Positions 4,819-38,927 of a stretch of 64,000 bases of DNA are shown here, piece after piece. The stretch is taken from contig NZ_CP028811.1 of NCBI RefSeq assembly GCF_003055625.1, forward strand, positions 124,001 to 188,000, in the 5' to 3' direction. Position 1 is the stretch's first letter; each line of letters begins with the position of its first letter. The position numbers were made by a program, and so were the translations under genes. Source of the stretch: Flavobacterium magnum. Its GTDB lineage: Bacteria > Bacteroidota > Bacteroidia > Flavobacteriales > Flavobacteriaceae. The notes under the pieces are model-generated. The model did no database searches and was not told the origin of the DNA. It worked only from the letters and a program-made list of their open reading frames with translations.

Positions 4819-4826
4819 CGTATGTG

Positions 4827-10250: not shown

Positions 10251-10712
10251 CTATCCTGCATTCAGGATTTTCCGATCATACAATAACGGCCGCCATACCC
10301 TGTACGTGAAGCTGATTAAGATCAGGTTGATCAGCAGCAAGCCGCCGGTTTCGATCAACTCCCCTGTCTCATCGCGCTCGAGGAACAGGTGGAACAAAAA
10401 AATATTCAAAATGACCGGCAGCGCGATCAACGCCCCAATACCCGAAAAAACCTGGCTGATGAGCATGATGCCGCCCGCGAGTTCGACAATGCCCAGGAAT
10501 TCCCAGAAAAAGCCGGTCTGTTTCATGCCGAAAATATAATTCTTAATTTGGAGTGCCTCGATTGTTGGCGCCACCTGACCGCCTTGCTGTACTTTCTCGA
10601 CAATCTCTGTCGGTGAGGGCATCGGCCTGGCAAATTTCATGATGCCGCCGTAAAGCAGCATACCGCCGAGAATCAGGTTGAGAACAATACGGATGATATT
10701 TTTTACTTTCAT
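10251..10712 (-). CDS. DoxX-like integral membrane protein
   Basis: A 153-residue protein with four hydrophobic segments (IVLNLILGGMLLYGGIMKF, WEFLGIVELAGGIMLISQV, GALIALPVILNIFLFHLFL, GGLLLINLILISFTY), the layout of the DoxX/MauE superfamily of small redox-associated membrane proteins. The GGIMKF and ELAGGIML motifs support this. It starts 2 nt after the HmuY-like stop codon, so it is probably the third gene of the haem-uptake operon. A specific role in haem uptake is inferred from position only. Confidence 0.75.
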   Translation of the reverse strand: MKVKNIIRIVLNLILGGMLLYGGIMKFARPMPSPTEIVEKVQQGGQVAPTIEALQIKNYIFGMKQTGFFWEFLGIVELAGGIMLISQVFSGIGALIALPVILNIFLFHLFLERDETGELIETGGLLLINLILISFTYRVWRPLLYDRKILNAG

Positions 10713-10714
10713 AA

Positions 10715-12133: not shown

Positions 12134-12147
12134 GGTGATGTATTAAT

Positions 12148-20944: not shown

Positions 20945-23377
20945 CTAATTCTTAACCATTTTCTGTATTTTGCTGCCTTTTGCCGAAGTCACTCTCACGT
21001 AGTACAACCCGGCGGCATAATGTGATACATCCCTAACCGATGACGCTCCCCTGTCGCGGCTGGACGAAAGCAGCCTGCCTTTGGCATCAAACCATTCTAC
21101 GTCTACAATATCACTTGTCGCCTGAATGTAAACCCGACCAGTCGTAGGGTTGGGATAAATCGTGATACCGGCATCGTAATCCGAATCGTCCACGGATAGG
21201 CTGGAAATCGCCGTAACGGCAGTATTTGTCGTGATGGGGGCGTTATAATCAAAGAAAATGTCAGCCACTGCCGAGACGGTATTGCCTGCAACCAAATTGC
21301 CGCTGATTTTCAACTTGAAAGTGATGTTGCCGTGTGCCCCTGCTGCGAGCTGGATGTCTTCAAAAATTACCTCAACGATATTGCCCTTCCTGCGCAAATA
21401 CGCCGGATGGGAAGTGCCTGTGACAGACAGGCTGCCGATATCAAATTCCTCAGGGGCAATCTGCATTTTCACAACGATATGCTCCGCCGGATAAGTGCCT
21501 GTGTTTTCAAAATTGACAACATAATGCAGGTAATTTCCGATACTATCCGGGAACACCTCACTGCCCTCGAGGCAGGTTATGTTATTTGGGTCAAACGAAC
21601 CCACCACGGTTTGTGTATACGAAAACGTATTGTCGGAGGCTGTTTCATCGAGACCCAACGGTTCAATAGCTGCTGTGAATTGCAGCAGGTCACTGATATT
21701 TACTGCCGGCGTGTCAGTAGGCGCATTGACGGTAAACTGTACGAGGAGGGTCCGCGACTCAAACGGCGCCAGATTCAATAGATCCCAGTACAGCATGTTG
21801 GCTGCCTGTGCAGATGGTCCCTGCGAAGCCGATACGAAATCAAGTACACTGTCTTGAAACTGCAGTGAGATGCCATTGGCCTGCGACATGACCTGATTGC
21901 CTTTATTCTTATATACAATTTCATAAACCGCTTCGAATCCCGGTCTCGCGGGCGTTATCGGCGCCATAACGATTTCAAGGTCAGGGTGTATGCCATTCGC
22001 CGTTATGCAAAAATCACGGGTGGCAGACTGGTTGTTATTGTCTGGAAATCCTACTGCAGCATTGGCTGGACTGACCGTAAAGAATGTCGGGTTTTCGACT
22101 TCAGGGGTCACGGTAAAGTTCCCTGCCTGTGTATACAATTTGTAACTGCCGTCGGTGAGCGTGTACGTTGCACTCTGAGAAACGCCATCATCTATTTTGA
22201 CTTTTATGAAAGGAAACTGCTGGTCTTCGGCATCACAACCGTCGGCATCACCATCAAGATGCAAACTGCCAGTAATCTTGTTGTAATTCCCACCAGGAGT
22301 AAAACTGCAGTAGGAATTAACTACCGTATTGGTCATCCCATAATTATTAAGCATAGCCTGAATGGAGGCAATCTGTCCCTCATCGGCACAAATAAAATCA
22401 ATGGCAGGATTGAAGATGAAATCAGGATCATCGACATCCATAAAAAATGACAATGCCGATTCGTTGCTACCGTTTTTGAGGAACAGGGTCTCAAAATGGT
22501 TGTTCGTGGCAATGATACCGGTCAGGGAAGCGCAATCAGATACATCAAGTGTCGTTAACTGGCTGTTGGTAATGTACAAGGCCTGCAGTGACGTACATCC
22601 GGAAACATCCAGTGAAGTCAGGCTGTTATATTCTGCCCTTAAGTTAACCAATGCTGTGCAGCCTGAAGCGTTAAGCGTCGTTAGCGCATTGATCTGATTC
22701 GACTTCCCTTCTATATCAATTTCCCACAAGGCGGTATGCCCCGAAATATCTACTGACAACAGATTGGGATTGCGATCCAGGTAGATATAGTACAAAGCCG
22801 GGTTATTTGAAAAGTCAACCGTAAGCATATTGTTCATGCCTAGATTAACCTCGTACAACAAAGGACATCCGGACAAATCCACTGCCGTTAAGTTGTTTTC
22901 GTGCGCGCGCAGCTCGATGAGGGCAGACAGTGACGTCACATCCAGTGTGGTAAGCAGGTTTCCGCTGCACCACAGGTTGGTCATCTCAGTAAGCCCTGAC
23001 ACATTCAATGAAGTAATGTCATTTTGGTCGCAATAGAAAACTTTCAGGTGGGTAAGCATAGACACATCAAGGGTTCCTGTGAGGTTGTTGTAGTAAATCA
23101 CCAGCCTACGGAGGTTTACAAAACTTTCGAGGCCCTGCACATTAGACAGTGAAGCGTTACTCAAGTCAAGCTGATACACGGCTTCCGCTTCCGAAACCTG
23201 GATGTTGCCATCGCTATTGGCGTCAATCTTCATATTGTTGCCGTTACTGTCCCTGGCTACCGAGTTGTTTACGGATGACGACAGCAACTTGTTCTTAAAA
23301 ACGACGTTGGGGACATTTACAAGTTGCGCGTTGGCCGACAGGGCAGTCAACAGCAGCAGGTACATTGTGTTTTTCAT
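20945..23377 (-). CDS. T9SS-secreted leucine-rich-repeat protein (LRR-1)
   Basis: An 810-residue secreted protein. From the ATG at 23377 the signal peptide is MKNTMYLLLLTALSANAQ; an ATG four codons upstream is possible but gives a less typical signal. An EF-hand-like loop DANSDGNIQVSEAE (about residue 50) precedes about twelve 21-residue LRRs of the form LxxLDVSGCxxLxxLxxxxN (about 70-325). A cap with two conserved Cys (FICADEG ... NSYCSFTPGGNYN) follows, then a DGDADGCDAED SdrD/B-like sandwich, DUF11-like and pre-C-terminal domains (CLEGSEVFPDSIGNYLHY), and a type A T9SS sorting domain (ITIYPNPTTGRVYI). It lies 27 nt after the next LRR gene and ends the presumed operon. Ligand unknown. Confidence 0.88.
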   Translation of the reverse strand: MKNTMYLLLLTALSANAQLVNVPNVVFKNKLLSSSVNNSVARDSNGNNMKIDANSDGNIQVSEAEAVYQLDLSNASLSNVQGLESFVNLRRLVIYYNNLTGTLDVSMLTHLKVFYCDQNDITSLNVSGLTEMTNLWCSGNLLTTLDVTSLSALIELRAHENNLTAVDLSGCPLLYEVNLGMNNMLTVDFSNNPALYYIYLDRNPNLLSVDISGHTALWEIDIEGKSNQINALTTLNASGCTALVNLRAEYNSLTSLDVSGCTSLQALYITNSQLTTLDVSDCASLTGIIATNNHFETLFLKNGSNESALSFFMDVDDPDFIFNPAIDFICADEGQIASIQAMLNNYGMTNTVVNSYCSFTPGGNYNKITGSLHLDGDADGCDAEDQQFPFIKVKIDDGVSQSATYTLTDGSYKLYTQAGNFTVTPEVENPTFFTVSPANAAVGFPDNNNQSATRDFCITANGIHPDLEIVMAPITPARPGFEAVYEIVYKNKGNQVMSQANGISLQFQDSVLDFVSASQGPSAQAANMLYWDLLNLAPFESRTLLVQFTVNAPTDTPAVNISDLLQFTAAIEPLGLDETASDNTFSYTQTVVGSFDPNNITCLEGSEVFPDSIGNYLHYVVNFENTGTYPAEHIVVKMQIAPEEFDIGSLSVTGTSHPAYLRRKGNIVEVIFEDIQLAAGAHGNITFKLKISGNLVAGNTVSAVADIFFDYNAPITTNTAVTAISSLSVDDSDYDAGITIYPNPTTGRVYIQATSDIVDVEWFDAKGRLLSSSRDRGASSVRDVSHYAAGLYYVRVTSAKGSKIQKMVKN

Positions 23378-23404
23378 CTTGTTGATCATAAAATTCCTGT
23401 TACA

Positions 23405-25582
23405 TTAACGCTTAATCACTTTTGCGGTCTTCGTTCCTTTTTGGGTTGTCACCCGGATATAATACACGCCTGAGGTGTATGTTGAAATATCCAGGGCGGC
23501 GTTCGGTTCGCCCGGTGTTTTGACCAGCAGCAACCTGCCCTGGGCGTCAAACAGTTCAGCGGATTTTATTTCGCCCGGTGCGTCAATGTACATCTTGTCG
23601 GCGGCAGGGTTCGGATATATGGTAACGACGTTGTCCATGGTGGTATCGCCGGCACTTAATACTTCGAAAACGGTAGTCGCCGTATTGGTCTGGATCGGGA
23701 AGTTATAATCAAAGTAAATGCCTGCGCTTTTGCTGACCGCATCACCGGTCCCGAGATCGCCGTTGCTTCGGATCTTAAGCAATATATTACCGTGGCCTCC
23801 GGTATCAAGCTGTATGTTCCTGAAAATCAGCTCCAGAATGTTATTGGTCAGCCGGGCATCGAGGACATGCGATGCCTGCATGATACGCAGGGAGCTGATA
23901 TTGAATTTCGCAGGGTCGATCTGGAGTTTCACCACGATGTTTTCCGCCGGTGCCGTACCGGTATTTTCGAAGTTAACCACATAATGAAGGTATTCGCCAA
24001 TTTCCGACGGGTCTACCGAATCCCCTTCGAGACAACTGATGTCATTCGGGTCAAATGAACCCACCACCGTCTGCGTGTAGGTAAAACTGTTATCTGCCGG
24101 ATTCTCATCGGTTCCGTTTGCAGCAATAGTAGCTGTGAAAGGCAGCAGGTCGTCAATATTCACCGCAGGGGTATCCGTCGGGGCATTGACACTGAACGTC
24201 ACCGTGATAGCGCGCGATTCAAACGGGAGCAAATCCTGGTAATCCCATTGCAGCAAATTGTCGCTTTGCGTTGATACCGTCTCAGAAGACGACACGAAGT
24301 CCAATACGTCGTCGTTGAACTCCAACCCTATTCCGTTAGCCATCGACAAGGGCTGGTTGCCTATGTTCCTGTACCCGATCACATATTTTGCATCAAAACC
24401 GGGCTTGGCAGGGACAATGGGCGCAATTACGATTTCCACATCCTGATGGGAACCATTGGCTGTGATACAAAAATCCTGTGTTGTCACATTGTTGTTGGCA
24501 TTCGGAAACACCACATTTGCTGCAGCAGGGGTCACCGTGAACATTGATGGATTATCGAGTGCCGGCGCAATGGCAAAAGTGCCCTGGCCGAAATAGTCTG
24601 CATAACTGCCGTCAGGAAAGGTGAACGCAGCGTATTGGTTGCTCCCGTTTGTGATATTGAGCCTGATGTAACCCTGGTCCGGGTCACTGTCGCCACAGCC
24701 ATTGCCGTCAATGTCGTAAGTGACGTGGCCGGTAAGGGTATTGTAATTACCGCCCGGTGTAAAGGTACAATACGATCCAACGACCGGATACGAATTGAAA
24801 TCCGGAAGGGTTTCATTGGTCATGATCAGGTCGATGGCCGCCTGAAAGTTGGCCATCTCCGAATTGTCTGCGCACACGTAAGTCAGGTTTGGGATGTCAG
24901 TGGCCGATATGGTTGAAAAAACAATCGGCGATTCCGTGTGACCGTTTTTCACAATCAGCACCTCCAGATTGGTATCCTTGACCACAAAATTCGTAATGGC
25001 ATTGCACGGGGAAAGGTCGATCGTCTTGAAATGATTCTGCTCAAGGTCGATTGCCGCAAGAGCGTGACTGCCGGCGACATCGAGCAGGCCCAGTTGCGGG
25101 TTGTTCACGCAGTTGATCGATGTAAACGCGGCACAATTGGTGATGCTCAATGATTGCAGTGTGGGACTGCCGGTTATCGTGAGTCCGGTTAGTGCGGGCA
25201 GCCCGGAAACTGCCACTTCGTTAATGGATAAATTGGAGCCAATGCCCGTGATGCTTTGCAGACTCATCAAGCCACTCAGCTGCAACTGCGTGATTGATGT
25301 ATTCGTAATTGATAACGAAGAGATGTTTGCAAACGACTCTACCCCCTGCAGCGACTGGATGGCAGCACCATCAATTGAAAGCCGGAATGCCGAAGCCGCT
25401 TCGGTTTGCTGGATTTCACCATCATTATCCAAATCAGCGTCGGTATCAAAAGTACCATTGTTGTCGCTGTCGATACAGTTTGCCGTAAGCAGGTAATTCT
25501 TAAAACCCGCATCCGGAACGTCGACAATCTGCGCCTGCAGTATCCCGGACATCAGCAGTAGGAGTAAGTAGATTTTCTTCAT
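23405..25582 (-). CDS. T9SS-secreted leucine-rich-repeat protein (LRR-2)
   Basis: A 725-residue paralogue with the shortest LRR array. Signal peptide MKKIYLLLLLMSGILQAQ, then PDAGFKNYLL, an EF-hand-like loop (DADLDNDGEIQQTEAA) and about six degenerate LRRs (LSITNTSITQLQLSGLMSL ... LGLLDVAGSHALAAI). The Cys cap (YVCADN ... GSYCTFTPGGNYN), sandwich domains (DIDGNGCGDSDPDQGYI) and pre-CTD segment (CLEGDSVDPSEIGEYLHY) resemble the other family members. The CTD (VTIYPNPAADKMYI ... YTSGVYYIRV) directs T9SS export. It starts 86 bp after the response regulator with no terminator or consensus promoter between, so it is probably cotranscribed with the two-component genes. Confidence 0.88.
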   Translation of the reverse strand: MKKIYLLLLLMSGILQAQIVDVPDAGFKNYLLTANCIDSDNNGTFDTDADLDNDGEIQQTEAASAFRLSIDGAAIQSLQGVESFANISSLSITNTSITQLQLSGLMSLQSITGIGSNLSINEVAVSGLPALTGLTITGSPTLQSLSITNCAAFTSINCVNNPQLGLLDVAGSHALAAIDLEQNHFKTIDLSPCNAITNFVVKDTNLEVLIVKNGHTESPIVFSTISATDIPNLTYVCADNSEMANFQAAIDLIMTNETLPDFNSYPVVGSYCTFTPGGNYNTLTGHVTYDIDGNGCGDSDPDQGYIRLNITNGSNQYAAFTFPDGSYADYFGQGTFAIAPALDNPSMFTVTPAAANVVFPNANNNVTTQDFCITANGSHQDVEIVIAPIVPAKPGFDAKYVIGYRNIGNQPLSMANGIGLEFNDDVLDFVSSSETVSTQSDNLLQWDYQDLLPFESRAITVTFSVNAPTDTPAVNIDDLLPFTATIAANGTDENPADNSFTYTQTVVGSFDPNDISCLEGDSVDPSEIGEYLHYVVNFENTGTAPAENIVVKLQIDPAKFNISSLRIMQASHVLDARLTNNILELIFRNIQLDTGGHGNILLKIRSNGDLGTGDAVSKSAGIYFDYNFPIQTNTATTVFEVLSAGDTTMDNVVTIYPNPAADKMYIDAPGEIKSAELFDAQGRLLLVKTPGEPNAALDISTYTSGVYYIRVTTQKGTKTAKVIKR

Positions 25583-25668
25583 CGTATTGTCGTTTTGGTT
25601 GCGATTTTTTTGGTCAGTTTTCAGGTTTGTTTGTTTGTTTTATTTTCTAATATCCGCGTCATGCCATG

Positions 25669-26430
25669 CTACATCGACTTGAGCAATTCCTGCAGCCTGT
25701 CTTTTTTCCGTTGGGAGATGGGCAGGTTGCTGTTGTCTGACATGACGACATATCCGCCGTCTTTCTTGATATACGACTTGAGGTAAGCAAGGTTGATCAG
25801 GTGTGACTGGTGGATCCTTTCGAAACCGTGCTCGCCAAGCAGCTCCTCATATTCCTTAAGCGTTTTCGATATCAGTACCGGCTTGTTGTTCCGGAGGTAA
25901 AACCGCGTGTAATTGTCTTCGCTTTCACAACGGATGATGTCGCTGATTTCAAACAGGTGAATGCCTTCTGCGGTCGACAAGGCAATCCTTTTAAAATTGT
26001 CGACTTTCTTGCGGATGTTCTCCAGCAAAAGGTCAATGTGGGCATAATTATCATTCCGGTCCAGTACATTCTTTATCTTACCGATGACTTTCTGCAGCTC
26101 TTCAGGATCTACGGGCTTAAGCAGGAAATCCAGTGCGCTGAACCGGAAAGCCTTCACGGCGTACTGCTCATGCGCGGTAATAAAAACAATATGCGACGAG
26201 GATTTACCGTGTTTTGAGGCCAGCTGCTCGAGGATGTCAAATCCTGTCCCGTCATTGAGCTGGATATCCAGGAAAACCACCTGTGGCCTGAACCGCTCCA
26301 TGGCCGCCACGCCCTGCTGCACACTATCGGCCTCGCCTATAATCGTAATGTCCGGGGCATACATCGCCAACAGCGCTTTCATGCCATTTCTCAGGTTGAT
26401 GTCGTCGTCTATGAGTAATGCTGTAATCAT
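25669..26430 (-). CDS. LytTR-family response regulator
   Basis: A 253-residue two-component response regulator. The receiver domain (residues 1-120) has the acidic pocket DDD at 8-10, the phosphoacceptor Asp55 in VVFLDIQLND, and the conserved Thr and Lys segments VFITAHEQYAVKAF and LLKPVD. The C-terminal LytTR DNA-binding domain (about 150-250) contains IIRCESEDNYTRFYL and GFERIHQSHLINLAYL. Its ATG overlaps the kinase stop by one nucleotide (TAATG), so the pair is translationally coupled. LytTR regulators often control surface polymers, adhesion or secretion. The likely local targets are the neighbouring LRR genes, which is inference from context. Confidence 0.93.
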   Translation of the reverse strand: MITALLIDDDINLRNGMKALLAMYAPDITIIGEADSVQQGVAAMERFRPQVVFLDIQLNDGTGFDILEQLASKHGKSSSHIVFITAHEQYAVKAFRFSALDFLLKPVDPEELQKVIGKIKNVLDRNDNYAHIDLLLENIRKKVDNFKRIALSTAEGIHLFEISDIIRCESEDNYTRFYLRNNKPVLISKTLKEYEELLGEHGFERIHQSHLINLAYLKSYIKKDGGYVVMSDNSNLPISQRKKDRLQELLKSM

Positions 26431-28391
26431 TATTTTGAAATGTATTGTAACGGCAGCCTTAGTGTGACCCGGGTGCCTTTGATGAGATCTTTCTCTGTGA
26501 TTTCTTCGATCTGCAGGCGCGTTTTTACGGCGGTCGAATCCTCTATCATCTGCAGCCTTTTTTTAGTGATATCAATTGCCATCGATTTATGTACCGATAC
26601 CGATCCTTCTTTCATACGCTGCGATTGGTAAATGCCCACACCGTTGTCGGTAATGCTGCATACGAGGTGTTTTTCCTCCACAGTAAAGACAATCGCCAGG
26701 TGACCTTTTTCCTTAATCGGAATGAGTCCATGAATGATTGCATTCTCTGCGAAAGGCTGCAAAAGCAACGGCGGAATGGCCATATCATCCTCTATAGCGG
26801 GATTTTTATGGATGTTGAAACTGAACTTCTGATTGAAACGCAGCTGCTCGAGTTCCAGATAATTTTGCAGGCTTTCAATTTCCTTGTCTATCGGGATCAA
26901 GGGCTCTTTCGAATATTCGAGCGTCAGGCGCATCAGCTTCGAAAATTTTGCCAGGTATTTGATCGCAGAGTCGGTGCCGTTTTGGACGATAAAGCTCGAA
27001 ATCGATCCCAGGCAGTTGAACACAAAATGCGGGTTCATCTGCAAATGCAGCGCTTTTTGTTCGTATTCGGCCAGCTCTTTTTGCAGGGTCAGCGTTTTCT
27101 TCAGGTTAAACCGGCTGTACACCAACACCCCGATGCCGCCGAGCAGGACCACGAGGAGTACTGCGAAAAAGATTTGCATCGCATGTCTTTTGGAGGCTTC
27201 CGCGAAAAGCAATTCTTTTTTTTCGATTTCCTTTTTCTGCAGTGCTTCCCTTTTGTCGAATTCGAAGTTCATCTCCGCCTCGACGCCTTTTCGGATGCTT
27301 TCGTGGTTGTTGAGACTGTCTTTCGCGCGGTCATACAGTGTCATGTGCAGCAGCGCCTTTTTCGTATCATTTAACGCGGCATAACTGTCACTAAGCAGTT
27401 TTTCAGATGCGGTAACCTGTTCCAGGACCGCGGTTTCCCTGGCCAGCTGCAAGGCCTTTTGCGCATAGGTAACGGCCTTGCCGAATTGTTTCTGGTCGTA
27501 ATAAAATTGCCCGAAGTACAGCTGCGTATCTGCAAGTCCGAAACGGTCATCTATACTATTAAACGCCGTGGTGGCGCGTTCCCAGTTCCTGACGGCATTT
27601 GCCGGATCCGACATCGCCTGATAATACAGGCCGAGGTTGTTGTACAGTTCCCCCAAGCCCCGTGAATCGCGACTTTGTTGGAGGAAAACCATTGCATCAG
27701 TATAAAATTTCAACGCATTGGACATCTGCTTTTGCCGGGCGTAACAGTTCCCGATATTGGTCAGGGTAATGCCCTGATTCGGATCATTGGTTTGCTGCTG
27801 TTTTTTCCATGAGCGGATGAAATAGTCGAGCGCCTTGAAATCCTGTTTCTGCGCCTGGTAAATAATGCCGATGTTGTTGTAAATCCGGGCGCACCTTACG
27901 GTATCCCTGAGCTGTTCGTAAATTCCGACCGCCTTAAGGTCAAATTGCAAAGCCTTGGCATAATTGCTCTGCTCAGACAAGACGATGCCGATGCTGCCGT
28001 AAGTACGGGCGAGTCCCTCGCGTACTTCGGTTTTTTTATTGCCTGCATTGATCTCACTTTCGAAAAGGAACTGCGCGTCTGAAAAGTACTGCAATGCCTG
28101 ACGGTAATCGCCCGATATGATATTGGCGATACCCAGGTTGACCCTTGCGTTGGCCTCTTCGGTCTTATACCGTATGCCCATCGATAAGTCCAGCGCTTTC
28201 TTTGCGTAGGCCCTGAGTGACTTAGGGTCAACGGTCTTATAGCCTTCAGCTATCCGGTTCAGCAGTTTCGCCCTATCGATGTCGTTTTTAGCATGCGCCA
28301 ATTCCCGTTTCAGGCTGTCTACGACATTTTGCTGTGCAAAAGCCATCGACGCGGAACAAAGCAGCAGTGCTAGAAATAATTTGATTTTCAT
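26430..28391 (-). CDS. LytS-type sensor histidine kinase with periplasmic TPR domain
   Basis: A 653-residue sensor kinase. Signal peptide MKIKLFLALLLCSASMAFAQ, then about 370 residues of tetratricopeptide repeats (for example ARIYNNIGIIYQAQKQDFKALDYF and LGELYNNLGLYYQAMSDPANA), a single transmembrane helix near 405-428 (FFAVLLVVLLGGIGVLVYS), a coiled coil and a His_kinase domain with the phosphorylated His in MNPHFVFNCLGSISSF. The ATPase domain carries the N box PFAENAIIHGL and G box ITDNGVGI. The signal peptide places the TPR sensor in the periplasm. An in-frame TTG six codons upstream is less likely than the ATG at 28391. A consensus promoter precedes it, and the partner regulator overlaps its stop. 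Confidence 0.92.
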   Translation of the reverse strand: MKIKLFLALLLCSASMAFAQQNVVDSLKRELAHAKNDIDRAKLLNRIAEGYKTVDPKSLRAYAKKALDLSMGIRYKTEEANARVNLGIANIISGDYRQALQYFSDAQFLFESEINAGNKKTEVREGLARTYGSIGIVLSEQSNYAKALQFDLKAVGIYEQLRDTVRCARIYNNIGIIYQAQKQDFKALDYFIRSWKKQQQTNDPNQGITLTNIGNCYARQKQMSNALKFYTDAMVFLQQSRDSRGLGELYNNLGLYYQAMSDPANAVRNWERATTAFNSIDDRFGLADTQLYFGQFYYDQKQFGKAVTYAQKALQLARETAVLEQVTASEKLLSDSYAALNDTKKALLHMTLYDRAKDSLNNHESIRKGVEAEMNFEFDKREALQKKEIEKKELLFAEASKRHAMQIFFAVLLVVLLGGIGVLVYSRFNLKKTLTLQKELAEYEQKALHLQMNPHFVFNCLGSISSFIVQNGTDSAIKYLAKFSKLMRLTLEYSKEPLIPIDKEIESLQNYLELEQLRFNQKFSFNIHKNPAIEDDMAIPPLLLQPFAENAIIHGLIPIKEKGHLAIVFTVEEKHLVCSITDNGVGIYQSQRMKEGSVSVHKSMAIDITKKRLQMIEDSTAVKTRLQIEEITEKDLIKGTRVTLRLPLQYISK

Positions 28392-28410
28392 AAATGGGCA
28401 ACTTGACAAA

Positions 28411-28439
28411 CAAAAGTAACATTTCCGTTAATTCAGCAA
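28411..28439 (-). promoter_or_regulatory. Promoter (TTG, 18 nt, TACTTTTG) for the kinase-regulator-LRR operon
   Basis: On the minus strand a TTG at 28437-28439 and TACTTTTG at 28411-28418 with an 18-nt spacer, 19 nt before the kinase ATG. Confidence 0.7.
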
Positions 28440-28483
28440 GCACTGAATTAGAATTTTGCCGTTTTGAAAGAGAATTTGAAATG

Positions 28484-28505
28484 AAAAAACCCGCACGAGG
28501 CGGGT
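28484..28505 (-). terminator. Rho-independent terminator after LRR-3
   Basis: ACCCGC and GCGGGT arms (minus strand) followed by TTTTTT, 20 nt past the LRR-3 stop. It separates LRR-3 from the downstream kinase operon. Confidence 0.85.
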
Positions 28506-28523
28506 CTTAGTTTGAATGAAGTA

Positions 28524-31352: not shown

Positions 31353-31377
31353 AAGTGATTGTTTAATGTTTTGCTAA

Positions 31378-31385
31378 TAAAGATA
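31378..31385 (-). promoter_or_regulatory. Possible promoter TATCTTTA for LRR-3
   Basis: Minus-strand octamer matching TAnnTTTG except the last base, 25 nt before the LRR-3 ATG. The upstream tract is A/T-rich without a well-spaced -33 TTG. Confidence 0.35.
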
Positions 31386-31435
31386 AACAAAAAACAACAA
31401 GGTTGCGCAGCTGCTGAAATTTTTTTTAAGATTTT

Positions 31436-31464
31436 AAAAACCGTACTTTGCTTACAAATAGTAC
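31436..31464 (-). terminator. Terminator-like hairpin after the LRR-4/5/6 operon
   Basis: Minus strand GTAC-(TA bulge)-TTTG, loop TAAG, CAAAGTAC, followed by GGTTTTT. It lies 65 nt after the LRR-4 stop. The bulge makes it weaker than the other terminators here. Confidence 0.5.
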
Positions 31465-31528
31465 AGACGTAAAACCGCGTGCGAAACGCGAAGCGTAAGG
31501 CAAAATATTTTTAAAAATCGTTTGGAAA

Positions 31529-33721
31529 TTATTGTTTTATAATCCGTTGGACACCGTAGCCATTGTCTGTCTGCACCTTAACCAAGTAAGCGCCATCGGC
31601 AAAACCGGACAAATCGATAACCCCTGAAACAGCTTTTATCGGAAATTCCCGGCCGCGGACGTCAAACAACACCACGGATTGAATATCGGCTTCCGTGCGG
31701 ATCGTAACGCGGTCGCTGGCGGGATTCGGGTAAATTGTGATGCGGTTATCCAAAGTTTGTTCGTCTGTTCCCAAAGCATCAAAAGTCGTCACCGCTAAGT
31801 TGGTTGCCACCGGGAAATTGTAATCGAAATAAATATCGGCTTTTTGTGAAACCGAATTCCCGGTCACCAAAGTATTTTTGGTCTTGATCTTAAAAGTCAC
31901 ATTCCCACGCTCCGAAGCGCCAAGGTTGATGCCTTCAAAAATGAATTCGACTTTGTCATTTGTGATTCGCGGTGTGACCGGATGCGAGGCATGCAACACC
32001 TGCAATGTCGAAATATCAAATTTCGTCAAATCGATCATATCCTTAACAACGATATTTTCTGCGGCAGCGGTTCCTGTATTTTCAAAGTTGATGTTGTAAT
32101 GGAGGTATTTTCCGATTTCCGTTGGATTGACATGCTCGCCTTCAAGGCAGGTAATGTCATTCGGATCGTAAGAACCGACAACCGTTTGCTTGAACGAAAA
32201 AGTGTTGTCACCTGGCGTCACATCTCCCCCAACCGGGTTCGCCTGAGCATGGAAACCAAGCTGGTCGCCAATATTCACTGCCGGGGTTTCCTGCGGCGAG
32301 TTCACATTCAGCCTGACTTCAATGCTTCTGGATTCGAAAGGATACAGGTTGCTGAAATTCCATGACAGGCTTCCGGCAGTTTGCGCATCAGGAGTTGTGG
32401 ATGCGTTTACAAAATCAAGCTCGTTTTCCTGATAGGTAAAGTCTACACTACCTGATAAAACCTGATTCCCTTTGTTTTTATAAATGATTTTATAAGTGGC
32501 GTCAAAGCCGGGACGGGCAGGTGTATTAGGTACGATGACTGTTTCAAGGTCGTTTTGGATTCCATTTGCGGTGATACAGAAATCCTGCGTAGTGATGTTG
32601 TTATTGTTGTTACCAAAAAGAATAGTCGCCAGTGGCGGTGTGATGGTAAACATTGACATATTCTCCGCTGCAACGGAAACATTAAAAGTACCTGCCTGCC
32701 CGAAATTAGTATAATTTCCGTCAGGTGAAGTGAATACCGTATAATTGTCGTTTCCGCTGGTCAGCGTCAGTTTTACATAGGGTTGATCAGGGTCATTACC
32801 ATCACAACCGTTATTATCAGTATCGAAAGTGACATTACCAGTAATCGTATTGTAATTGCCGCCAGGGAAAATAGTGCAATACGGGCTAACGACCGCGCTA
32901 CTTAACGAATAAGAGTTCAAAGTTTGCTGCACACCAGAAAGCTGAAAATCGTCCACACATATAAAACTCAGGTTAAGATCATACCCTAATGAAAATGACT
33001 CATTCCTTCCGTTTTTAGCAAAAATAGTTTCCAAAGGCAGGTTTTCACTTAAATTGACGTAGTTAAGTCCAACACATGTTTCAAGATCTACTGTCTCCAA
33101 CATGTTATTTTGAAGATACAAATTGTTAACATGGGTATTCTCCAAATTAATAGAGGACAGTTGATTATATTCCAAATGAACTAAACCTGGAAGATTTCTG
33201 CCTGAAAGATCTATTGATTGCAATTGGTTATGATCTAAGATTAGCGCTTCATAATACCCCTGTTCACTTAACACAATATTGGTCAGACTATTGTTAGATG
33301 CCCGTAATTGGAGGTTTTCCATATCAGAAACGTCGAGCGAAGTTAATTGGTTATATTGACACCACAGATAATGCAACGCGAAACAATTATCTATGTTTAA
33401 ATCCATCAATAAATTGTTGCCAACATCTATATTAAACAAATGTGTCAGTCCGGAAACATTTAGTGTCTGGATTGAATTATTGTATGCGCTCAGATTTTGA
33501 AGATTTGTAAATGCCAAAATTCCCTCCAGGCTTGATATATTGGAATCATATAAATTCAGGCTCGTCACTACTGCCGCCTCAGTCAGTTGAATTTCCCCAT
33601 CCGAATTAACGTCAATGCCCTCAGACAACAACTTCGCCTTAAAATTCGCATCAGGGATATTCACGATCTGCGCCTGGGAAGCGGCTGAAAAGAAAAGGAA
33701 GTAGAGTAATAGTTTTTTCAT
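31529..33721 (-). CDS. T9SS-secreted leucine-rich-repeat protein (LRR-4)
   Basis: A 730-residue member of the tandem trio. The signal peptide MKKLLLYFLFFSAASQAQ and following IVNIPDANFKAKLL are identical to LRR-5. EF-hand-like loop DVNSDGEIQLTEAA, about eight LRRs (about 55-245), Cys cap (FICVDDFQ ... SPYCTIFPGGNYN), DTDNNGCDGNDPDQPYV sandwich, DUF11-like domain and a DUF7619-like pre-CTD segment (YDPNDITCLEGEHVNPTEIG) come next. Its middle is almost identical to LRR-5, but its CTD (ITIYPNPASDRVTI ... FADGAYLVKV) is of a different lineage. It starts 1 nt after the LRR-5 stop and is last in the trio. Confidence 0.88.
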   Translation of the reverse strand: MKKLLLYFLFFSAASQAQIVNIPDANFKAKLLSEGIDVNSDGEIQLTEAAVVTSLNLYDSNISSLEGILAFTNLQNLSAYNNSIQTLNVSGLTHLFNIDVGNNLLMDLNIDNCFALHYLWCQYNQLTSLDVSDMENLQLRASNNSLTNIVLSEQGYYEALILDHNQLQSIDLSGRNLPGLVHLEYNQLSSINLENTHVNNLYLQNNMLETVDLETCVGLNYVNLSENLPLETIFAKNGRNESFSLGYDLNLSFICVDDFQLSGVQQTLNSYSLSSAVVSPYCTIFPGGNYNTITGNVTFDTDNNGCDGNDPDQPYVKLTLTSGNDNYTVFTSPDGNYTNFGQAGTFNVSVAAENMSMFTITPPLATILFGNNNNNITTQDFCITANGIQNDLETVIVPNTPARPGFDATYKIIYKNKGNQVLSGSVDFTYQENELDFVNASTTPDAQTAGSLSWNFSNLYPFESRSIEVRLNVNSPQETPAVNIGDQLGFHAQANPVGGDVTPGDNTFSFKQTVVGSYDPNDITCLEGEHVNPTEIGKYLHYNINFENTGTAAAENIVVKDMIDLTKFDISTLQVLHASHPVTPRITNDKVEFIFEGINLGASERGNVTFKIKTKNTLVTGNSVSQKADIYFDYNFPVATNLAVTTFDALGTDEQTLDNRITIYPNPASDRVTIRTEADIQSVVLFDVRGREFPIKAVSGVIDLSGFADGAYLVKVQTDNGYGVQRIIKQ

Positions 33722-33722
33722 A

Positions 33723-36362
33723 TTATTGTTTTATCAGTTTTTGGGTTTTGAATCCTTTGTAAGTCGCAACTTTTATAAAATATACTCCGGAAGTATATGT
33801 TGAAATATTGAGTGTCTCCACATTGTTTTTCCTCAAAAGCTGCCTTCCCTGAACATCAAACAGCTCAACTGATTTGATTTCCGAATCTGATTTTATATTA
33901 ACCAAACCTTTGGTCGGATTTGGATAAATACTAATATCATCATCCAAAACCACATTGTCTGTTCCCAAAGTATCGAAAGTCGTCATCGCTACGTTGGTTG
34001 CCACAGGAAAATTATAATCAAAATAAATATCGGCTTTCTGTGAAACCGAATTTCCGGTGACCAAAGTATTTTTCGTCTTGATCTTAAAAGTTACATTGCC
34101 ATGCTCCGAAGCGCCGAGGTTGATGCCTTCAAAAATGAATTCGACTTTGCCGTTCGTAATCCTTGGCGTCATCGGGTGTGAAGCATTCAAAACCTGAAGA
34201 GTTGAAACATCAAACTTTGTCAAATCAATCATATCGACCACCACAATATTTTCTGCGGCAGCGGTACCGGTATTTTCAAAGTTGATGTTGTAATGGAGGT
34301 ATTTTCCGATTTCCGTCGGATTGACGTGCTCGCCTTCAAGGCAGGTAATGTCATTCGGATCGTAAGAACCGATAACCGTTTGCTTGAACGAAAAAGTGTT
34401 GTCACCTGGCGTCACATCTCCCCCAACCGGGTTAGCCTGAGCATGGAAACCAAGCTGGTCGCCAATATTCACTGCCGGGGTTTCCTGCGGCGAGTTCACA
34501 TTCAGCCTGACTTCAATACTCCTCGATTCGAAAGGATACAGGTTGCTGAAATTCCATGACAGGCTTCCGGCAGTTTGCGCATCAGGAGTTGTGGATGCGT
34601 TTACAAAATCAAGCTCATTTTCCTGATAGGTAAAATCGACACTTCCCGATAAAACCTGGTTGCCTTTGTTTTTGTAAATGATTTGATATATCGCATCAAA
34701 TCCCGGACGGGCTGGTGCAATAGGAACAATTACCGTTTCAAGATCATTCTGGAGGCCATTGGCGGTGATACAGAAATCCTGGGTGGTGATATTGTTATTG
34801 TTGTCGCCAAAAACAATTGTTGCCAACGGTGGTGTGATCGTGAACAGTGACGCATTTTCCATTGCAACACTAATGTTGAAAGTTCCGGTAAGTCCGAAAT
34901 TGTTATACGTTCCGTCAGGAGAAGTAAATACAGCATAATTATTTCCCCCTGTGGTCAGGTTAAGTTTTACATAGGGCTGGTCCGGATCCGTACTGTCGCA
35001 GCCATTGTTATCAATATCATAAGTAATGTTGCCGGTGATCGTATTGAAATTACCTCCCGGTTGGAAGAAGCAGTAAGGACTCGCAACAGCATTGGTCAAT
35101 CCGTAGATATTTAAACGCTGTTGTGTGTCCTGTAATTGCATTTCATCAACACATACGAAAATAAGGTTGTCATCACCTCCAAAAAAGAAATCTTCGTTAT
35201 TACTGCCATTTTTAGCAAATACAGTTTCAAGGGAAGGATTGTTAGACAGTTCCACCAGATCTAATGTTGCGGAGCAGCCCGTCATATCTATTGTTTGGAG
35301 GGAATTATAGCTAAGCCTAAGCTGTCCTAAACCCGAAGCATTGCCCAGGTTGATTGTGTTTAGATTGTTATTGCTCACATCCAAAATAGCGCTTTGGTAG
35401 AAAGTCACACCGGATACATCAACATCCGTCAATTGATTATGGGCAACCATAATCCTTGAATTCGAACCTATCTGGGGAGGAGTAAATGATTGAAGGTTAT
35501 TATAGGAAACATCAAGATCATCAACCCTGCATGTTGACAAATCCAAAGCCGTCAATTGATTGTATTGTGCGTTGAAATACATAATGTTGCAATTGTTTAC
35601 AGTAAAACTTGTCAGCGAATTATACCGGACATCTAAATACAACATTGTCTGTATCAAACCAAGATTTGACAATTCCAATTGGGTCAGCTGGTTATTCCGC
35701 ACGATGAGTTCTTGTAGATTGGTACATCCTGAAAGATTAAGTACAGTCAGTTGATTATTTTCTGCGTTTAACCTTTTAAGTGCATTTAACCCGGAAAAAT
35801 CCAAAGCGGTCAGTTGGCAATTGTAAGCGTCTAAATCAAAAAGCGCAGAACAGCCTGAAACATCCAGCGTTGTCAAGGGGTTTGAATAACAGGTCAGATT
35901 AATTAAAGAGGTAAGACCGGAAGCATCAAGTGATGTCAAGGCACAGCTGGAAACAGTTAAATTAGTTAACGAACTGCATCCGGTAATATTCAGAGTAGCC
36001 AACGAAGGATTCAGTGAAGCAGATAACTGTTGCAGATTATTCATACCGGATACATCTAATGAAAGTAGGGCGTTTACATCGCAACTAAGTCTTGTCATAT
36101 TGGTAAAAGACTGTACCCCTTCCAGATTTTCAATTGATGAATTGTTAACAAATAATGCTCCCACAAGCTGTGCTTCGGCAAGTTGAATTTCTCCATCAGC
36201 GTTAGCATCTACCGCAATATGCATTCCCTGGGCATTTCTTGCAATAGTGTTTGAAGGTGATGATGACAACAACTTCGCCTTAAAATTCGCATCAGGGATA
36301 TTCACGATCTGCGCCTGGGAAGCGGCTGAAAAGAAAAGGAAGTAGAGTAATAGTTTTTTCAT
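33723..36362 (-). CDS. T9SS-secreted leucine-rich-repeat protein (LRR-5)
   Basis: An 879-residue protein with about 14 LRRs (residues about 75-370), including a short unusual stretch LDVSYNNLQSFTPPQIGSN. The N-terminus is shared with LRR-4. The EF-hand-like loop is DANADGEIQLAEAQ. Cap FVCVDEMQ ... SPYCFFQPGGNFN, then the DIDNNGCDSTDPDQPYV sandwich, DUF11-like and YDPNDITCLEGEHVNPTEIG domains, and CTD ISIYPNPTKGLVNI ... YTSGVYFIKV. It is mosaic: roughly the last 150 residues match LRR-6 and the preceding roughly 140 match LRR-4, both nearly identically. One nucleotide separates it from each neighbour. It should be secreted by the T9SS and displayed or released. Confidence 0.88.
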   Translation of the reverse strand: MKKLLLYFLFFSAASQAQIVNIPDANFKAKLLSSSPSNTIARNAQGMHIAVDANADGEIQLAEAQLVGALFVNNSSIENLEGVQSFTNMTRLSCDVNALLSLDVSGMNNLQQLSASLNPSLATLNITGCSSLTNLTVSSCALTSLDASGLTSLINLTCYSNPLTTLDVSGCSALFDLDAYNCQLTALDFSGLNALKRLNAENNQLTVLNLSGCTNLQELIVRNNQLTQLELSNLGLIQTMLYLDVRYNSLTSFTVNNCNIMYFNAQYNQLTALDLSTCRVDDLDVSYNNLQSFTPPQIGSNSRIMVAHNQLTDVDVSGVTFYQSAILDVSNNNLNTINLGNASGLGQLRLSYNSLQTIDMTGCSATLDLVELSNNPSLETVFAKNGSNNEDFFFGGDDNLIFVCVDEMQLQDTQQRLNIYGLTNAVASPYCFFQPGGNFNTITGNITYDIDNNGCDSTDPDQPYVKLNLTTGGNNYAVFTSPDGTYNNFGLTGTFNISVAMENASLFTITPPLATIVFGDNNNNITTQDFCITANGLQNDLETVIVPIAPARPGFDAIYQIIYKNKGNQVLSGSVDFTYQENELDFVNASTTPDAQTAGSLSWNFSNLYPFESRSIEVRLNVNSPQETPAVNIGDQLGFHAQANPVGGDVTPGDNTFSFKQTVIGSYDPNDITCLEGEHVNPTEIGKYLHYNINFENTGTAAAENIVVVDMIDLTKFDVSTLQVLNASHPMTPRITNGKVEFIFEGINLGASEHGNVTFKIKTKNTLVTGNSVSQKADIYFDYNFPVATNVAMTTFDTLGTDNVVLDDDISIYPNPTKGLVNIKSDSEIKSVELFDVQGRQLLRKNNVETLNISTYTSGVYFIKVATYKGFKTQKLIKQ

Positions 36363-36363
36363 A

Positions 36364-38805
36364 TTATTGTTTTATCAGTTTTTGGGTTTTGAATCCTTTG
36401 TAAGTCGCAACTTTTATAAAATATACTCCGCAAGTATATGTTGAAATATTGAGTGTCTCCACATTGTTTTTCCTCAAAAGCTGCCTTCCCTGGACATCAA
36501 ACAGCTCAACTGATTTGATTTCCGAATCTGATTTTATATTAACCAGGCCTTTGGTCGGATTTGGATAAATACTAATATCATCATCCAAAACCACATTGTC
36601 TGTTCCCAAAGTATCGAAAGTCGTCACCGCTACGTTGGTTGCCACAGGAAAATTATAATCAAAATAAATATCGGCTTTCTGTGAAACCGAATTTCCGGTG
36701 ACCAAAGTATTTTTCGTCTTAATCTTAAAAGCGACATTCCCATGCTCCGAAGCGCCGAGGTTGATGCCTTCAAAAATGAACTCGACTTTGCCGTTTGTAA
36801 TCCTTGGCGTCATCGGATGTGAAGCGTTTAGGATTTGTAAAGATGAAATATCAAATCTCGTCAAATCAATCATATCCTTTACCACGATATTTTCTGCGGC
36901 AGCGGTACCGATGTTCTCAAAATTGATATTGTAGTGCAGGTAGTTCCCGATTTCCGTCGGATTGACGTGTTCGCCTTCAAGGCAGGTGATATCATTTGGG
37001 TCATACGAACCGATGACGGTTTGCCTGAACGAAAACGTATTGTCATCTGGCGTTATATCTCCCGAAACAGGATTGGCCTGAACAGAAAAACTCAGTTGGT
37101 CACCTATGTTTACCGATGGCGTTTCCTGTGGCGAATTCACATGCAGCCTGACTTCCACGCTTCTCGATTCAAACGGATACAGGCTGCTGAAATTCCATGA
37201 CAAACTTCCGGCAGTTTGTACATCGGGTGCTGTGGAAGCATTTACATAATCGAGTTCGTTTTCCTGATACGTGAAATCAACATTTCCTGATAAGATTTGG
37301 TTTCCTTTGTTTTTGCAAATGATTTTATAGGTTGCATCGAAACCGGGACGGACGGGTGATAATGGAACAATTATTGTTTCGAGGTCATTTTGGATGCCGG
37401 TTGCCGTGATGCAGAAATCCTGAGTCGTCAAGTTATTATTATTGGTGCCGAATACAATGGTAGCCAATGGAGGTGTAATAGTAAACAGCGAGGCATTTTC
37501 CATCGCCAGGCCGACGTTAAACATACCGGTTTGCCCGAAATAATTGAAATTACCATCAGGTGTAGTGAAAACCGAATAAATGTTATTTCCACTCGTCAGA
37601 TTGAGTTTGACATATGGCTGGTCAGGATCTGTGTTATCACAACCATTATTGTCTGCATCAAAAGTGACATTACCGGTAATGGTGTTGTAATTACCGCCGG
37701 GAGTGAAAATGCAATATGGGCTAAATACAGCATTGGGAGGCGACGAACCACCAATTAAATCAGACTCATCAATGCAGACATACTCGAGACTAAAATCTCC
37801 AATAAATGACAGGTAATCTGAATTTCCATTTTTCGCAAAAAAGGTTTCAAGATATGGGTTTGAATCGATGTCTATCGAACAAAATGAGTTAATGCGAATT
37901 GCGCCGCTTAAATCTACCGTCTGGAAATTATTTCCATTAAGATATACGGTATATATTCTGGTTCCCTGAAAATTAATAGAAGTCAGGTTATTATGGTTAG
38001 CATTTAAGTCCCGCACATATAGACCAGACACGTCCAGATTTACAAGCTGGTTGTTGTCTAGCCAGAGGTGATTATACTGCGTATTCGGATTTAGCGAAAT
38101 GGAGGCAAGATTATTATGACTTGCGTCAACACCTTGGATGGGGCTGTTCGATAAGTCCAGCGATGTCAAGTGGTTGTAACTTAAGGCAATATCGGTGGAA
38201 ACATTTGTCCCGGTTACATCTAAGGTTGTCAATGCATTATGACTGAAGTCAAGCATTATCAGATTCCCCATATCTGAGGCATCAACGGATGTTAATTGAT
38301 TATATCGCGCAAGCAGGTACCCCCCATCACTACTCACCCAACCTGCAAGATTTAACGAAGTTAACTGGTTATTGCTAACGTCAAGGTTATACAAATGAAT
38401 AAGTCCTGAGGTATCCAGGCTCGTAAGTGCACAGTTTGAAGCGCGGCAATTTGCAAGTGATGTACACCCCGATAAGTTTAACGATGTCATGGCTGCATTA
38501 TGACCACAGTTCAATTCCCCAAGATGCGTGAGACCGGAAACATCCAATGCTGTGAGATTCAAATTATAACAGGTAAGGCTGGTCAGGTTTACAAATGATT
38601 GTATTCCTTCCAAACTGGAAATATTTAAATCTACCATGCCAAGGCTGGTTACCGCTTCTGCTTCAGAAACCTGTATGTCGCCATCAGAATTTAAATCAAT
38701 CCCTTTGTTAATCAAATCTGCTTTAAAGTTCGGATCCGGAATGTTAACAATCTGCGCCTGGGAAGCGGCTGAAAAGAAAAGGAAGTAGAGTAATAGTTTT
38801 TTCAT
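36364..38805 (-). CDS. T9SS-secreted leucine-rich-repeat protein (LRR-6), first gene of the tandem trio
   Basis: An 813-residue paralogue. Signal peptide MKKLLLYFLFFSAASQAQ (DNA identical to LRR-4 and LRR-5), EF-hand-like loop DLNSDGDIQVSEAEA, about 12 LRRs (residues about 60-330), cap YVCIDESD ... SPYCIFTPGGNYN, DADNNGCDNTDPDQPYV sandwich, DUF11-like domain, YDPNDITCLEGEHVNPTEIG segment and a CTD nearly identical to LRR-5 except Ser to Cys in YTCGVYFIKV. It is the promoter-proximal gene of the three-gene unit. The LRR-encoding half is much more diverged from its neighbours than the 3' half. No enzymatic motif is seen in any of the six proteins. Confidence 0.88.
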   Translation of the reverse strand: MKKLLLYFLFFSAASQAQIVNIPDPNFKADLINKGIDLNSDGDIQVSEAEAVTSLGMVDLNISSLEGIQSFVNLTSLTCYNLNLTALDVSGLTHLGELNCGHNAAMTSLNLSGCTSLANCRASNCALTSLDTSGLIHLYNLDVSNNQLTSLNLAGWVSSDGGYLLARYNQLTSVDASDMGNLIMLDFSHNALTTLDVTGTNVSTDIALSYNHLTSLDLSNSPIQGVDASHNNLASISLNPNTQYNHLWLDNNQLVNLDVSGLYVRDLNANHNNLTSINFQGTRIYTVYLNGNNFQTVDLSGAIRINSFCSIDIDSNPYLETFFAKNGNSDYLSFIGDFSLEYVCIDESDLIGGSSPPNAVFSPYCIFTPGGNYNTITGNVTFDADNNGCDNTDPDQPYVKLNLTSGNNIYSVFTTPDGNFNYFGQTGMFNVGLAMENASLFTITPPLATIVFGTNNNNLTTQDFCITATGIQNDLETIIVPLSPVRPGFDATYKIICKNKGNQILSGNVDFTYQENELDYVNASTAPDVQTAGSLSWNFSSLYPFESRSVEVRLHVNSPQETPSVNIGDQLSFSVQANPVSGDITPDDNTFSFRQTVIGSYDPNDITCLEGEHVNPTEIGNYLHYNINFENIGTAAAENIVVKDMIDLTRFDISSLQILNASHPMTPRITNGKVEFIFEGINLGASEHGNVAFKIKTKNTLVTGNSVSQKADIYFDYNFPVATNVAVTTFDTLGTDNVVLDDDISIYPNPTKGLVNIKSDSEIKSVELFDVQGRQLLRKNNVETLNISTYTCGVYFIKVATYKGFKTQKLIKQ

Positions 38806-38855: not shown

Positions 38856-38863
38856 CAAAAATA
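38856..38863 (-). promoter_or_regulatory. Promoter -7 element TATTTTTG for the LRR-6/5/4 operon
   Basis: Exact TAnnTTTG match on the minus strand, 50 nt before the LRR-6 ATG. No internal promoter is possible in the 1-nt gaps downstream. Confidence 0.55.
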
Positions 38864-38927
38864 ATGATTTCCTGTATTGCGGCTGCCGCGCAATTAGAAT
38901 TTGAAGGATTTGAGGAAGAATTTGCAA

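Follow-up and report, generated by a model that had tools for sequence, protein, structure and literature searches.

A six-gene leucine-rich repeat block of Flavobacterium magnum as a probable LytTR-controlled surface-protein regulon

Why does Flavobacterium magnum keep six genes for secreted leucine-rich repeat (LRR) proteins around a single two-component system? The question is raised by a stretch of 64,000 nucleotides (nt) analysed here, the window (RefSeq assembly GCF_003055625.1, contig NZ_CP028811.1, positions 124,001 to 188,000), in which six genes of one LRR family lie on the minus strand together with a histidine kinase (HK) and a LytTR response regulator (RR), the latter two between LRR-2 and LRR-3 and the whole flanked by eno and gltA (both named by eye). 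A preliminary description of the locus had proposed a regulated set of variable-specificity binding proteins around a dedicated sensor. Our comparisons indicate that the block is in all likelihood an autoregulated surface-protein regulon with exchangeable, recombining binding domains, of which the control circuit is well supported by sequence. The architecture of the genes, their linkage, a repeated upstream element, its phase with a -7 box, its co-variation with the regulator and the recombination tracts are all read directly from the DNA.

The HK-RR-LRR cassette among relatives

Orthologues of HK (E <= 1e-80) were found in 92 of 398 genomes of the same genus, the window's genome counted. Among 249 genomes drawn from across the family, 6 had one, two of these 6 belonging to the genus (one being the window's own). 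Loci were fetched for all listed HK matches of both searches except the window's own and their genes labelled by best match to the window proteins, giving 120 HK open reading frame (ORF) pieces that represent 118 genes, two of them in two pieces each. The order HK-RR-LRR on one strand recurs in 113 of the 118, indicating that the window layout is not due to chance. The five exceptions comprise four loci that end at a contig edge (L092, L120, L183, L187) and one that is decayed (L186). Members of the LRR family (E <= 1e-70, two best candidates scored per genome) are present in 195 of the 398 genomes, namely in 90 of the 92 HK-positive genomes versus 105 of the 306 others (Fisher p ~2e-31, relatedness ignored). 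The two HK-positive genomes without the family are G574, which holds locus L186, and G616, which is 67% complete and in which the contig ends behind RR. The preliminary description had proposed looking for such co-occurrence in related genomes, and the pair is indeed found mostly with LRR genes rather than elsewhere without them. The 105 LRR-positive genomes lacking HK at the threshold used indicate that LRR genes do not need the kinase.

Downstream of RR there is one LRR-family gene in 91 cassettes, two in 19 and three in 3, and 13 HKs have such a gene directly upstream. Cassettes most often lie beside eno and gltA, as in the window. The nearest relative (G460, HK 82% identical) has one LRR gene on either side of the pair, so that the six-gene set may be a local expansion or else reflect gene loss in G460. 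A scan of named genomes for HK returned at least 80 loci. Among the matches listed, the nine closest (L192-L200, six of them already among the contigs with G handles) have an LRR gene behind RR in eight cases, the ninth (L195) being a contig edge, and at L202 an LRR gene lies two to three ORFs upstream of a partial HK. None of the remaining 70, more distant loci among the matches listed (L201, L203-L271; 56 with an adjacent RR-type gene) has an LRR-family gene directly downstream, suggesting that LRR linkage is specific to this HK subfamily. A weak LRR-family match occurs two genes upstream in L208, and a very weak C-terminal one on the opposite strand in L247.

A repeated promoter element and two regulator clades

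LytTR systems such as AgrCA, ComDE and BtsSR act through paired direct half-sites, about 21 bp apart and close to the core promoter. Reading of upstream regions revealed a direct repeat of this kind, CrAATTCTaAtT...CrAATTCTaAtT, with half-sites 21 bp apart, which we regard as the probable operator. It was scored as two AATTCTAATT half-sites (maximum 20, threshold >=15) in upstream gaps of at least 60 bases, some of the HK regions lying within coding sequence where ORF starts were called late. Spacing 21 is the peak, with 65 of 114 HK and 40 of 67 LRR upstreams reaching the threshold (2.3 and 0.9 in shuffles). Control upstreams gave 1/38 for eno (1.5 in shuffles), 8/49 for gltA (2.8) and 0/24 for RR (0.15). 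A TAnnTTTG box starts 27 to 29 bases 3' of the operator at 84 of the 135 distinct sites with enough 3' sequence that a strict pattern of up to two mismatches found in the fetched loci (49, 30 and 5 sites, respectively), and it occurs anywhere 15 to 45 bases 3' at 86 of the 135 versus 2.75 in shuffles. The reversed strict pattern has no match in the fetched loci. The two direct half-sites expected near LytTR target promoters are thus present and co-vary with the regulator, and binding by RR is predicted.

Genome-wide scans covered 160 genomes, comprising 80 of the 92 HK-positive and 80 of the 105 HK-negative, LRR-positive genomes (159 pass 90% completeness and 5% contamination). The strict site is present in 63/80 of the former (reversed pattern 6/80) versus 11/80 of the latter (reversed 0/80), and the 17 matches listed in HK-negative genomes are, by eye, mostly simple repeats or ATTCC variants. 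The stricter pattern was used instead of an exact loose one, which matched in 110 of the 398 genomes and for which many of the listed matches were simple repeats. The window's own genome contains three strict sites and no reversed one: at the HK promoter, at the LRR6 promoter and just behind a distant two-gene LRR cluster, the first gene of which has a one-mismatch site ~90 bp before its start under a looser pattern. The site behind that cluster (G000:C1:2401443-2401475; L078, about 8444-8476) is a strict operator; by eye, a -7-like box comes next, then a hairpin and a fasciclin-like gene that lacks LRRs. It is perhaps an emptied promoter that lost its LRR gene, or a small RNA. The decayed locus L186 (G574, about 3161-4837), in which HK is in two pieces, RR and the LRR gene are gone and the remains adjoin gltA, still has an operator.

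A phylogenetic reconstruction of 113 RRs, the window's included, resolves a clade B of 37 RRs with 100/100 support. The operator described above (operator A, up to three mismatches) precedes HK in 65/113 cases, of which 2 are in clade B and 63 among the 76 others; mapped onto the tree it requires 9 changes compared with 36.6 for shuffled labels, with none of 500 shuffles as low. Clade B promoters contain a related repeat with identical spacing and the core AATAATAA. When the window and one short clade B region are left out, core patterns divide into 35/36 clade B promoters with B and 2/36 with A (both also have B), against 58/75 others with A and 0/75 with B, where shuffles give 0 to 1. In these sequences, therefore, operator and regulator co-vary. 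Residues that separate the two groups lie in the LytTR domain at 170 (S/A) and 241 (R/S) and in the receiver at 17, 25, 26 and 115; the comparison covered 60 and 35 rows, after removal of operator-less rows, of three odd rows in the first group that bear the operator and of two from clade B that have A sites. Of 26 genomes chosen to represent clade B, 12 contain a single copy of an exact B pattern, 73 to 116 bp before the HK match; exact matching, which misses diverged sites, found the pattern in 0/26 kinase-less genomes and not in the window's own genome. In three relatives, at L086, L102 and L114, clade B and A-type cassettes stand in tandem beside eno, the A-type promoters there being without an A operator.

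The reach of the regulator is probably wider than the linked LRR genes, as in relatives the operator also precedes genes for other secreted proteins. From the strict matches listed (up to one mismatch, off HK promoters) we chose 40 regions holding 43 sites, leaving out at least one contig-end site (G641:C263). A same-strand ORF starts 80 to 135 bp 3' of 36 of the 43 sites, compared with 2% of random positions. The 38 targets (ORF 30 to 190 bp 3'), some of which are mutual orthologues and one of which has two sites, encode a type IX secretion system (T9SS) type A sorting domain in 21 cases versus 18 of 214 other ORFs of the same regions, and a signal-like N-terminus, by a crude test, in 32 cases versus 86 of the 214. 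LRR-family genes lie 3' of nine sites, one of these genes being short. A Pfam scan of ten targets or operon partners identified T9SS cargo with DUF7619, Calx-beta or propeller domains, a CHU_C protein, a DUF5777 barrel with a tRNA_anti-like partner and an O-antigen-ligase-like protein, one protein having no match above cut-off. In several relatives a similar small gene pair recurs under the operator, at L302, L304, L306, L308, L327, L339 and L341; it is tRNA_anti-like plus a DUF5777 beta-barrel at L302, and the rest are alike by length and N-terminus. Two sites before a 389-amino-acid (aa) gene (L326, L340) appear to be due to chance.

Proteins, gene layout and recombination

Pfam confirms the receiver (75.7 bits, cut-off 30.2) and LytTR (68.2 bits, cut-off 22.6) domains of RR, which is 94% identical to its G460 counterpart and the LytTR domain of which matches one solved structure by sequence, 3d6w. 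HK has a PF06580 kinase domain (81.2 bits, cut-off 25.2) with His455 in the motif QMNPHFVFN, invariant across a 14-row alignment. Its sensor part gives tetratricopeptide repeat (TPR)-type Pfam matches, plus RPN7 below cut-off, and is modelled (32 sequences, pLDDT 89) as a TPR solenoid leading into one long helix; consensus TPRs and LGN are the best fold matches, with Rap proteins lower. LytS sensors have a multi-helix membrane part. The LytS label given in the preliminary description consequently suits the kinase domain of HK and not its sensor, a TPR solenoid with a single long helix.

All six LRR proteins have Por_Secre_tail and DUF7619 matches above Pfam cut-offs, a 12-residue EF-hand-like loop, a Y-C...P-G/A-G-N cap and a TIGR04183 sorting domain (43 to 55 bits, cut-off 23), which marks them as predicted T9SS type A cargo; their Sec signal peptides were judged by eye. 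LRR matches exceed a cut-off in five of the six, with LRR-4 below. Six one-strand paralogues of shared architecture around a kinase/LytTR pair, as first described, are thus borne out by coordinates, Pfam, loop and cap. The range of 6 to 18 repeat units given at the time is plausible and soft, since a tolerant pattern that misses degenerate units chains 7, 5, 16, 6, 13 and 7 units in LRR-1 to LRR-6. The IRREKO-type 21-residue repeat (LxxLx(C/L)xxNxLxxLDLxx) runs in LRR-1 and LRR-3, with LRR-2, -4, -5 and -6 irregular by the pattern used. An AlphaFold model of LRR-4 (37 sequences; pLDDT 88, pTM 0.59) has short repeated strands followed by beta-rich stretches, and its fold matches include InlJ, InlA, a designed LRR and adhesin-type sandwiches, the TM-scores over the whole chain being low.

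Recombination is most evident in LRR6, which is 98.6% identical to a G460 gene over nt 121-1500 (98.3% at third positions), compared with 88% before this tract and 87% and then 52% behind it. The two loci are otherwise 84.7% (gltA), 84.1% (eno), 84.5% (RR) and 77.5% (HK) identical, with third positions at 54 to 62%, so that the tract, against flanking genes at 77 to 85%, points to a recent exchange that spans the LRR domain and cap. In the window itself, LRR4/LRR5 and LRR5/LRR6 have C-terminal stretches at 97 to 99% identity in common, against a background of 55 to 93% per 100 nt; their longest identical runs were reached in 0/2000 permutations, while LRR4/LRR6 gave p 0.6. A search for inter-species tracts among 155 LRR genes used a threshold (>=250 nt at >=93%) that also misses the window's own short tracts. 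It returned one further pair, G373/G598 (93.5% over 676 nt), which is unremarkable as its flanks are at 90%. At L184 (G547), two LRR genes behind a diverged HK-RR (10461-13103 and 13115 on) share 1121 nt at 96.7%, through conversion or recent duplication.

The features of the block are given in Table 1. The HK start was taken at ATG (26430-28391), with a TTG alternative that would lengthen the gene to 28409, and HK and RR overlap by a single base, between the stop codon of the former and the start of the latter. Sigma-70 and terminator scans of the window region gave no excess over shuffles. Further LRR-family clusters of the same genome lie at C1:2396.7-2401.4 kb (2 genes) and C1:2577.4-2585.3 kb (3 genes), and the genome also encodes proteins that match the family in their C-terminal part only. 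Another LytTR-HK pair of this genome (L190; G000:C1:2185-2189 kb) adjoins a 498-aa protein with a T9SS-like tail, and more such pairings may exist.

Table 1. Features of the LRR block in window coordinates
Feature	Position	Strand	Description
LRR-1	20945..23389	-	814 aa; Sec signal (by eye), EF-hand-like loop, LRR, Cys cap, beta-sandwich region, DUF7619, T9SS type A sorting domain
LRR-2	23405..25582	-	725 aa; architecture as LRR-1; first gene 3' of RR
RR	25669..26430	-	Receiver domain (Asp55 taken as phospho-acceptor) and LytTR DNA-binding domain
HK	26430..28391	-	Sec signal and transmembrane helix (by eye), TPR solenoid, His_kinase domain
TAnnTTTG-type -7 box	28411..28418	-	27 bp 3' of HK operator; position computed from downstream sequence
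Probable operator of HK-RR-LRR2-LRR1 unit	28446..28478	-	Two half-sites, 21 bp apart
Terminator-like hairpin	28486..28508	-	Between LRR-3 and HK promoter; consensus match only, whole region not enriched versus shuffles
LRR-3	28524..31352	-	942 aa; operator not found in 176 bp 5' of gene
LRR-4	31529..33721	-	730 aa; first 75 nt same as LRR-5
LRR-5	33723..36362	-	879 aa; one-base gap to either neighbour; near-identical tracts with LRR-4 and LRR-6
LRR-6	36364..38805	-	813 aa; heads LRR6-5-4 run; nt 121-1500 98.6% identical to G460 gene
TAnnTTTG-type -7 box	38856..38863	-	28 bp 3' of LRR6 operator; position computed from downstream sequence
Probable operator of LRR6-5-4 unit	38892..38924	-	Two half-sites, 21 bp apart

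Interpretation and related systems

We propose that the window block is an enlarged copy of the conserved HK-RR-LRR cassette, in which the periplasmic TPR solenoid of the kinase would take in a signal and the kinase phosphorylate the LytTR regulator at Asp55. The regulator would then bind the two half-sites 21 bp apart just 5' of the core promoter and activate it, driving HK-RR-LRR2-LRR1 (autoregulation), LRR6-5-4 and perhaps LRR3, and probably also the second LRR cluster elsewhere in the genome. The operators before unlinked genes for T9SS cargo, lipoproteins and other envelope proteins in relatives suggest that the system may set the surface-protein repertoire. The LRR proteins would be exported via T9SS and bind partners through LRR domains that appear to diverge fast and to be swapped between paralogues and, in one clear case, between species. 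Binding of the element by RR, activation by RR, a signal, surface display and ligand binding are what we infer from these sequences. The earlier ideas of a dedicated sensor and a regulated set accordingly find sequence support in the operator and its co-variation with the regulator, the regulator probably reaching beyond these genes, and fold and recombination tracts favour variable-specificity binders as a prediction. A more ambitious formulation, somewhat less likely than not, is that two insulated paralogous control systems use different codes, one staying at its own LRR operon and the other's operator having spread over many secreted-protein genes. The LRR domains would then be exchangeable recognition cassettes that recombination carries between paralogues and between species, together a regulated bacterial recognition repertoire.

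Several observations weigh against the regulon as proposed. The element was defined on upstreams of the same genes that it explains, so that it is the genome scans, the phase with the -7 box and the A/B split that supply independence, and another regulator could bind the same sites. The gltA upstreams lie above their own shuffles (8 vs 2.8), and spacings 15 and 27 reach the threshold in 38 and 48 of 114 HK upstreams, as the half-site is itself repetitive. A strict A site is missing from 17 of the 80 HK-positive genomes, of which 10 have only clade B and 7 are not explained in this way, and as a regulon list the looser scan of the window's genome (up to three mismatches) was useless beyond the best few matches, with 60 matches versus 60 for the reversed pattern. 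Although relatives often carry an operator before the first LRR gene, the window has none in the gap between RR and LRR2 or upstream of LRR3. In 15 of 113 cassettes the first LRR-family gene matches the LRR pattern at most once (at least twice in the other 98) and was assigned via whole-protein similarity, with scores of 320 to 595, or 115 to 196 for three short or cut pieces. Finally, LRR6/G460 is the sole clear inter-species tract among the 155 LRR genes.

Were the pair and the LRR genes to travel together merely as a neutral or selfish neighbourhood, with the repeat serving another factor, one could account for the 105 LRR-positive genomes without the pair and for the terminator-like hairpin and operator-less gap that divide some window LRR genes from it. 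We nevertheless judge this very improbable, because the repeat is a direct one, as would be expected for LytTR regulators, stands at the HK promoter itself, tracks HK across genomes and changes its core with the regulator clade. What the kinase senses may also be conceived differently, with the TPR sensor monitoring T9SS cargo (for instance LRR or sorting domains that build up or are cleaved) in place of a cue from outside. An LRR cargo gene adjoins nearly every HK, TPRs that bind proteins or peptides (LGN complexes, Rap proteins) are among the fold matches of the TPR model, and the Porphyromonas gingivalis sorting-domain protein PorA has been proposed to feed the PorXY path (PMC7712824). The TPR matches are, however, generic to the fold, and we consider such secretion feedback, which would refine the regulon rather than oppose it, rather unlikely.

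LRR arrays expand and shrink easily. The six proteins could on that account be structural or nutrient-binding surface proteins that diverge via drift and unequal crossing-over in their repeats instead of variable-ligand binders, and only two inter-species pairs, one of them unremarkable, exceed the tract threshold among the 155 genes. Against this, a 98.6% tract over LRR domain and cap between species with 77 to 85% flanks suggests a transfer that was kept, and we regard the structural or nutrient-binding role as the less likely one. The regulon with exchangeable binding domains remains our preferred reading.

Like AgrCA, ComDE and BtsSR, the cassette combines a PF06580-type kinase with a LytTR regulator and half-sites ~21 bp apart near the core promoter, but it differs in its TPR solenoid sensor, its linked T9SS surface-protein targets and its half-site cores, AATTCTAA or AATAATAA. 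Internalin J of Listeria carries a cell-wall anchor, in contrast to the T9SS sorting domain at the end of the window proteins; its 21-residue LRR type is similar and InlJ and InlA are among the LRR-4 fold matches, but the NCBIfam model for Internalin J (NF033187) scores only 43 to 132 bits against a cut-off of 1700 in five of the proteins, with no match listed for LRR-2. Such 21-residue LxxLxCxxNxLxxLDL type repeats have been described as IRREKO LRRs (PMC2946307). PorXY-SigP of P. gingivalis and FimS are likewise Bacteroidota kinases tied to surface or T9SS proteins, but PorXY acts via the sigma factor SigP (PMC7712824), and the FimS model (NF053520) matches HK in its TPR part with 68 bits, far under its cut-off of 600.

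Tandem T9SS LRR genes are known from F. psychrophilum, in which 16 to 23 consecutive LRR genes were counted in the isolates compared (PMC8400371) and 17 tandem LRR genes are induced by fish plasma (PMC9723704). Set beside the window by description only, this array is alike in its tandem T9SS LRR genes, and the portions of the psychrophilum accounts available to us do not mention a linked kinase/LytTR pair or operator. Culture supernatants of gldD and gldG mutants contain less of several LRR proteins that bear TIGR04183 domains (PMC5682007), and a LytTR mutation is reported from evolved F. johnsoniae lines, the excerpts of that report leaving the controlled genes unstated (PMC10197871). The initial impression that no system of this layout had been described hence does not extend to the tandem arrays; a description of the HK-RR-LRR cassette, its operator or its regulon was not found in the titles, abstract beginnings and passages of the open-licence literature searched.

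In the accounts sampled, surface LRR proteins of Flavobacterium are treated mainly as variable, possibly virulence-linked genes of a fish pathogen; they now gain a candidate for a dedicated switch whose DNA code can be read. Wherever a sequenced genome of the genus has the kinase, the operator would predict a regulon, and with their distinct codes the two paralogous regulators offer a ready system for the splitting of regulator and operator specificity after duplication. Should the LRR domains prove to be exchangeable binders, experiments could address directly what these bacteria recognise, and the cassette may thus provide a way in to what Flavobacterium senses and sticks to.

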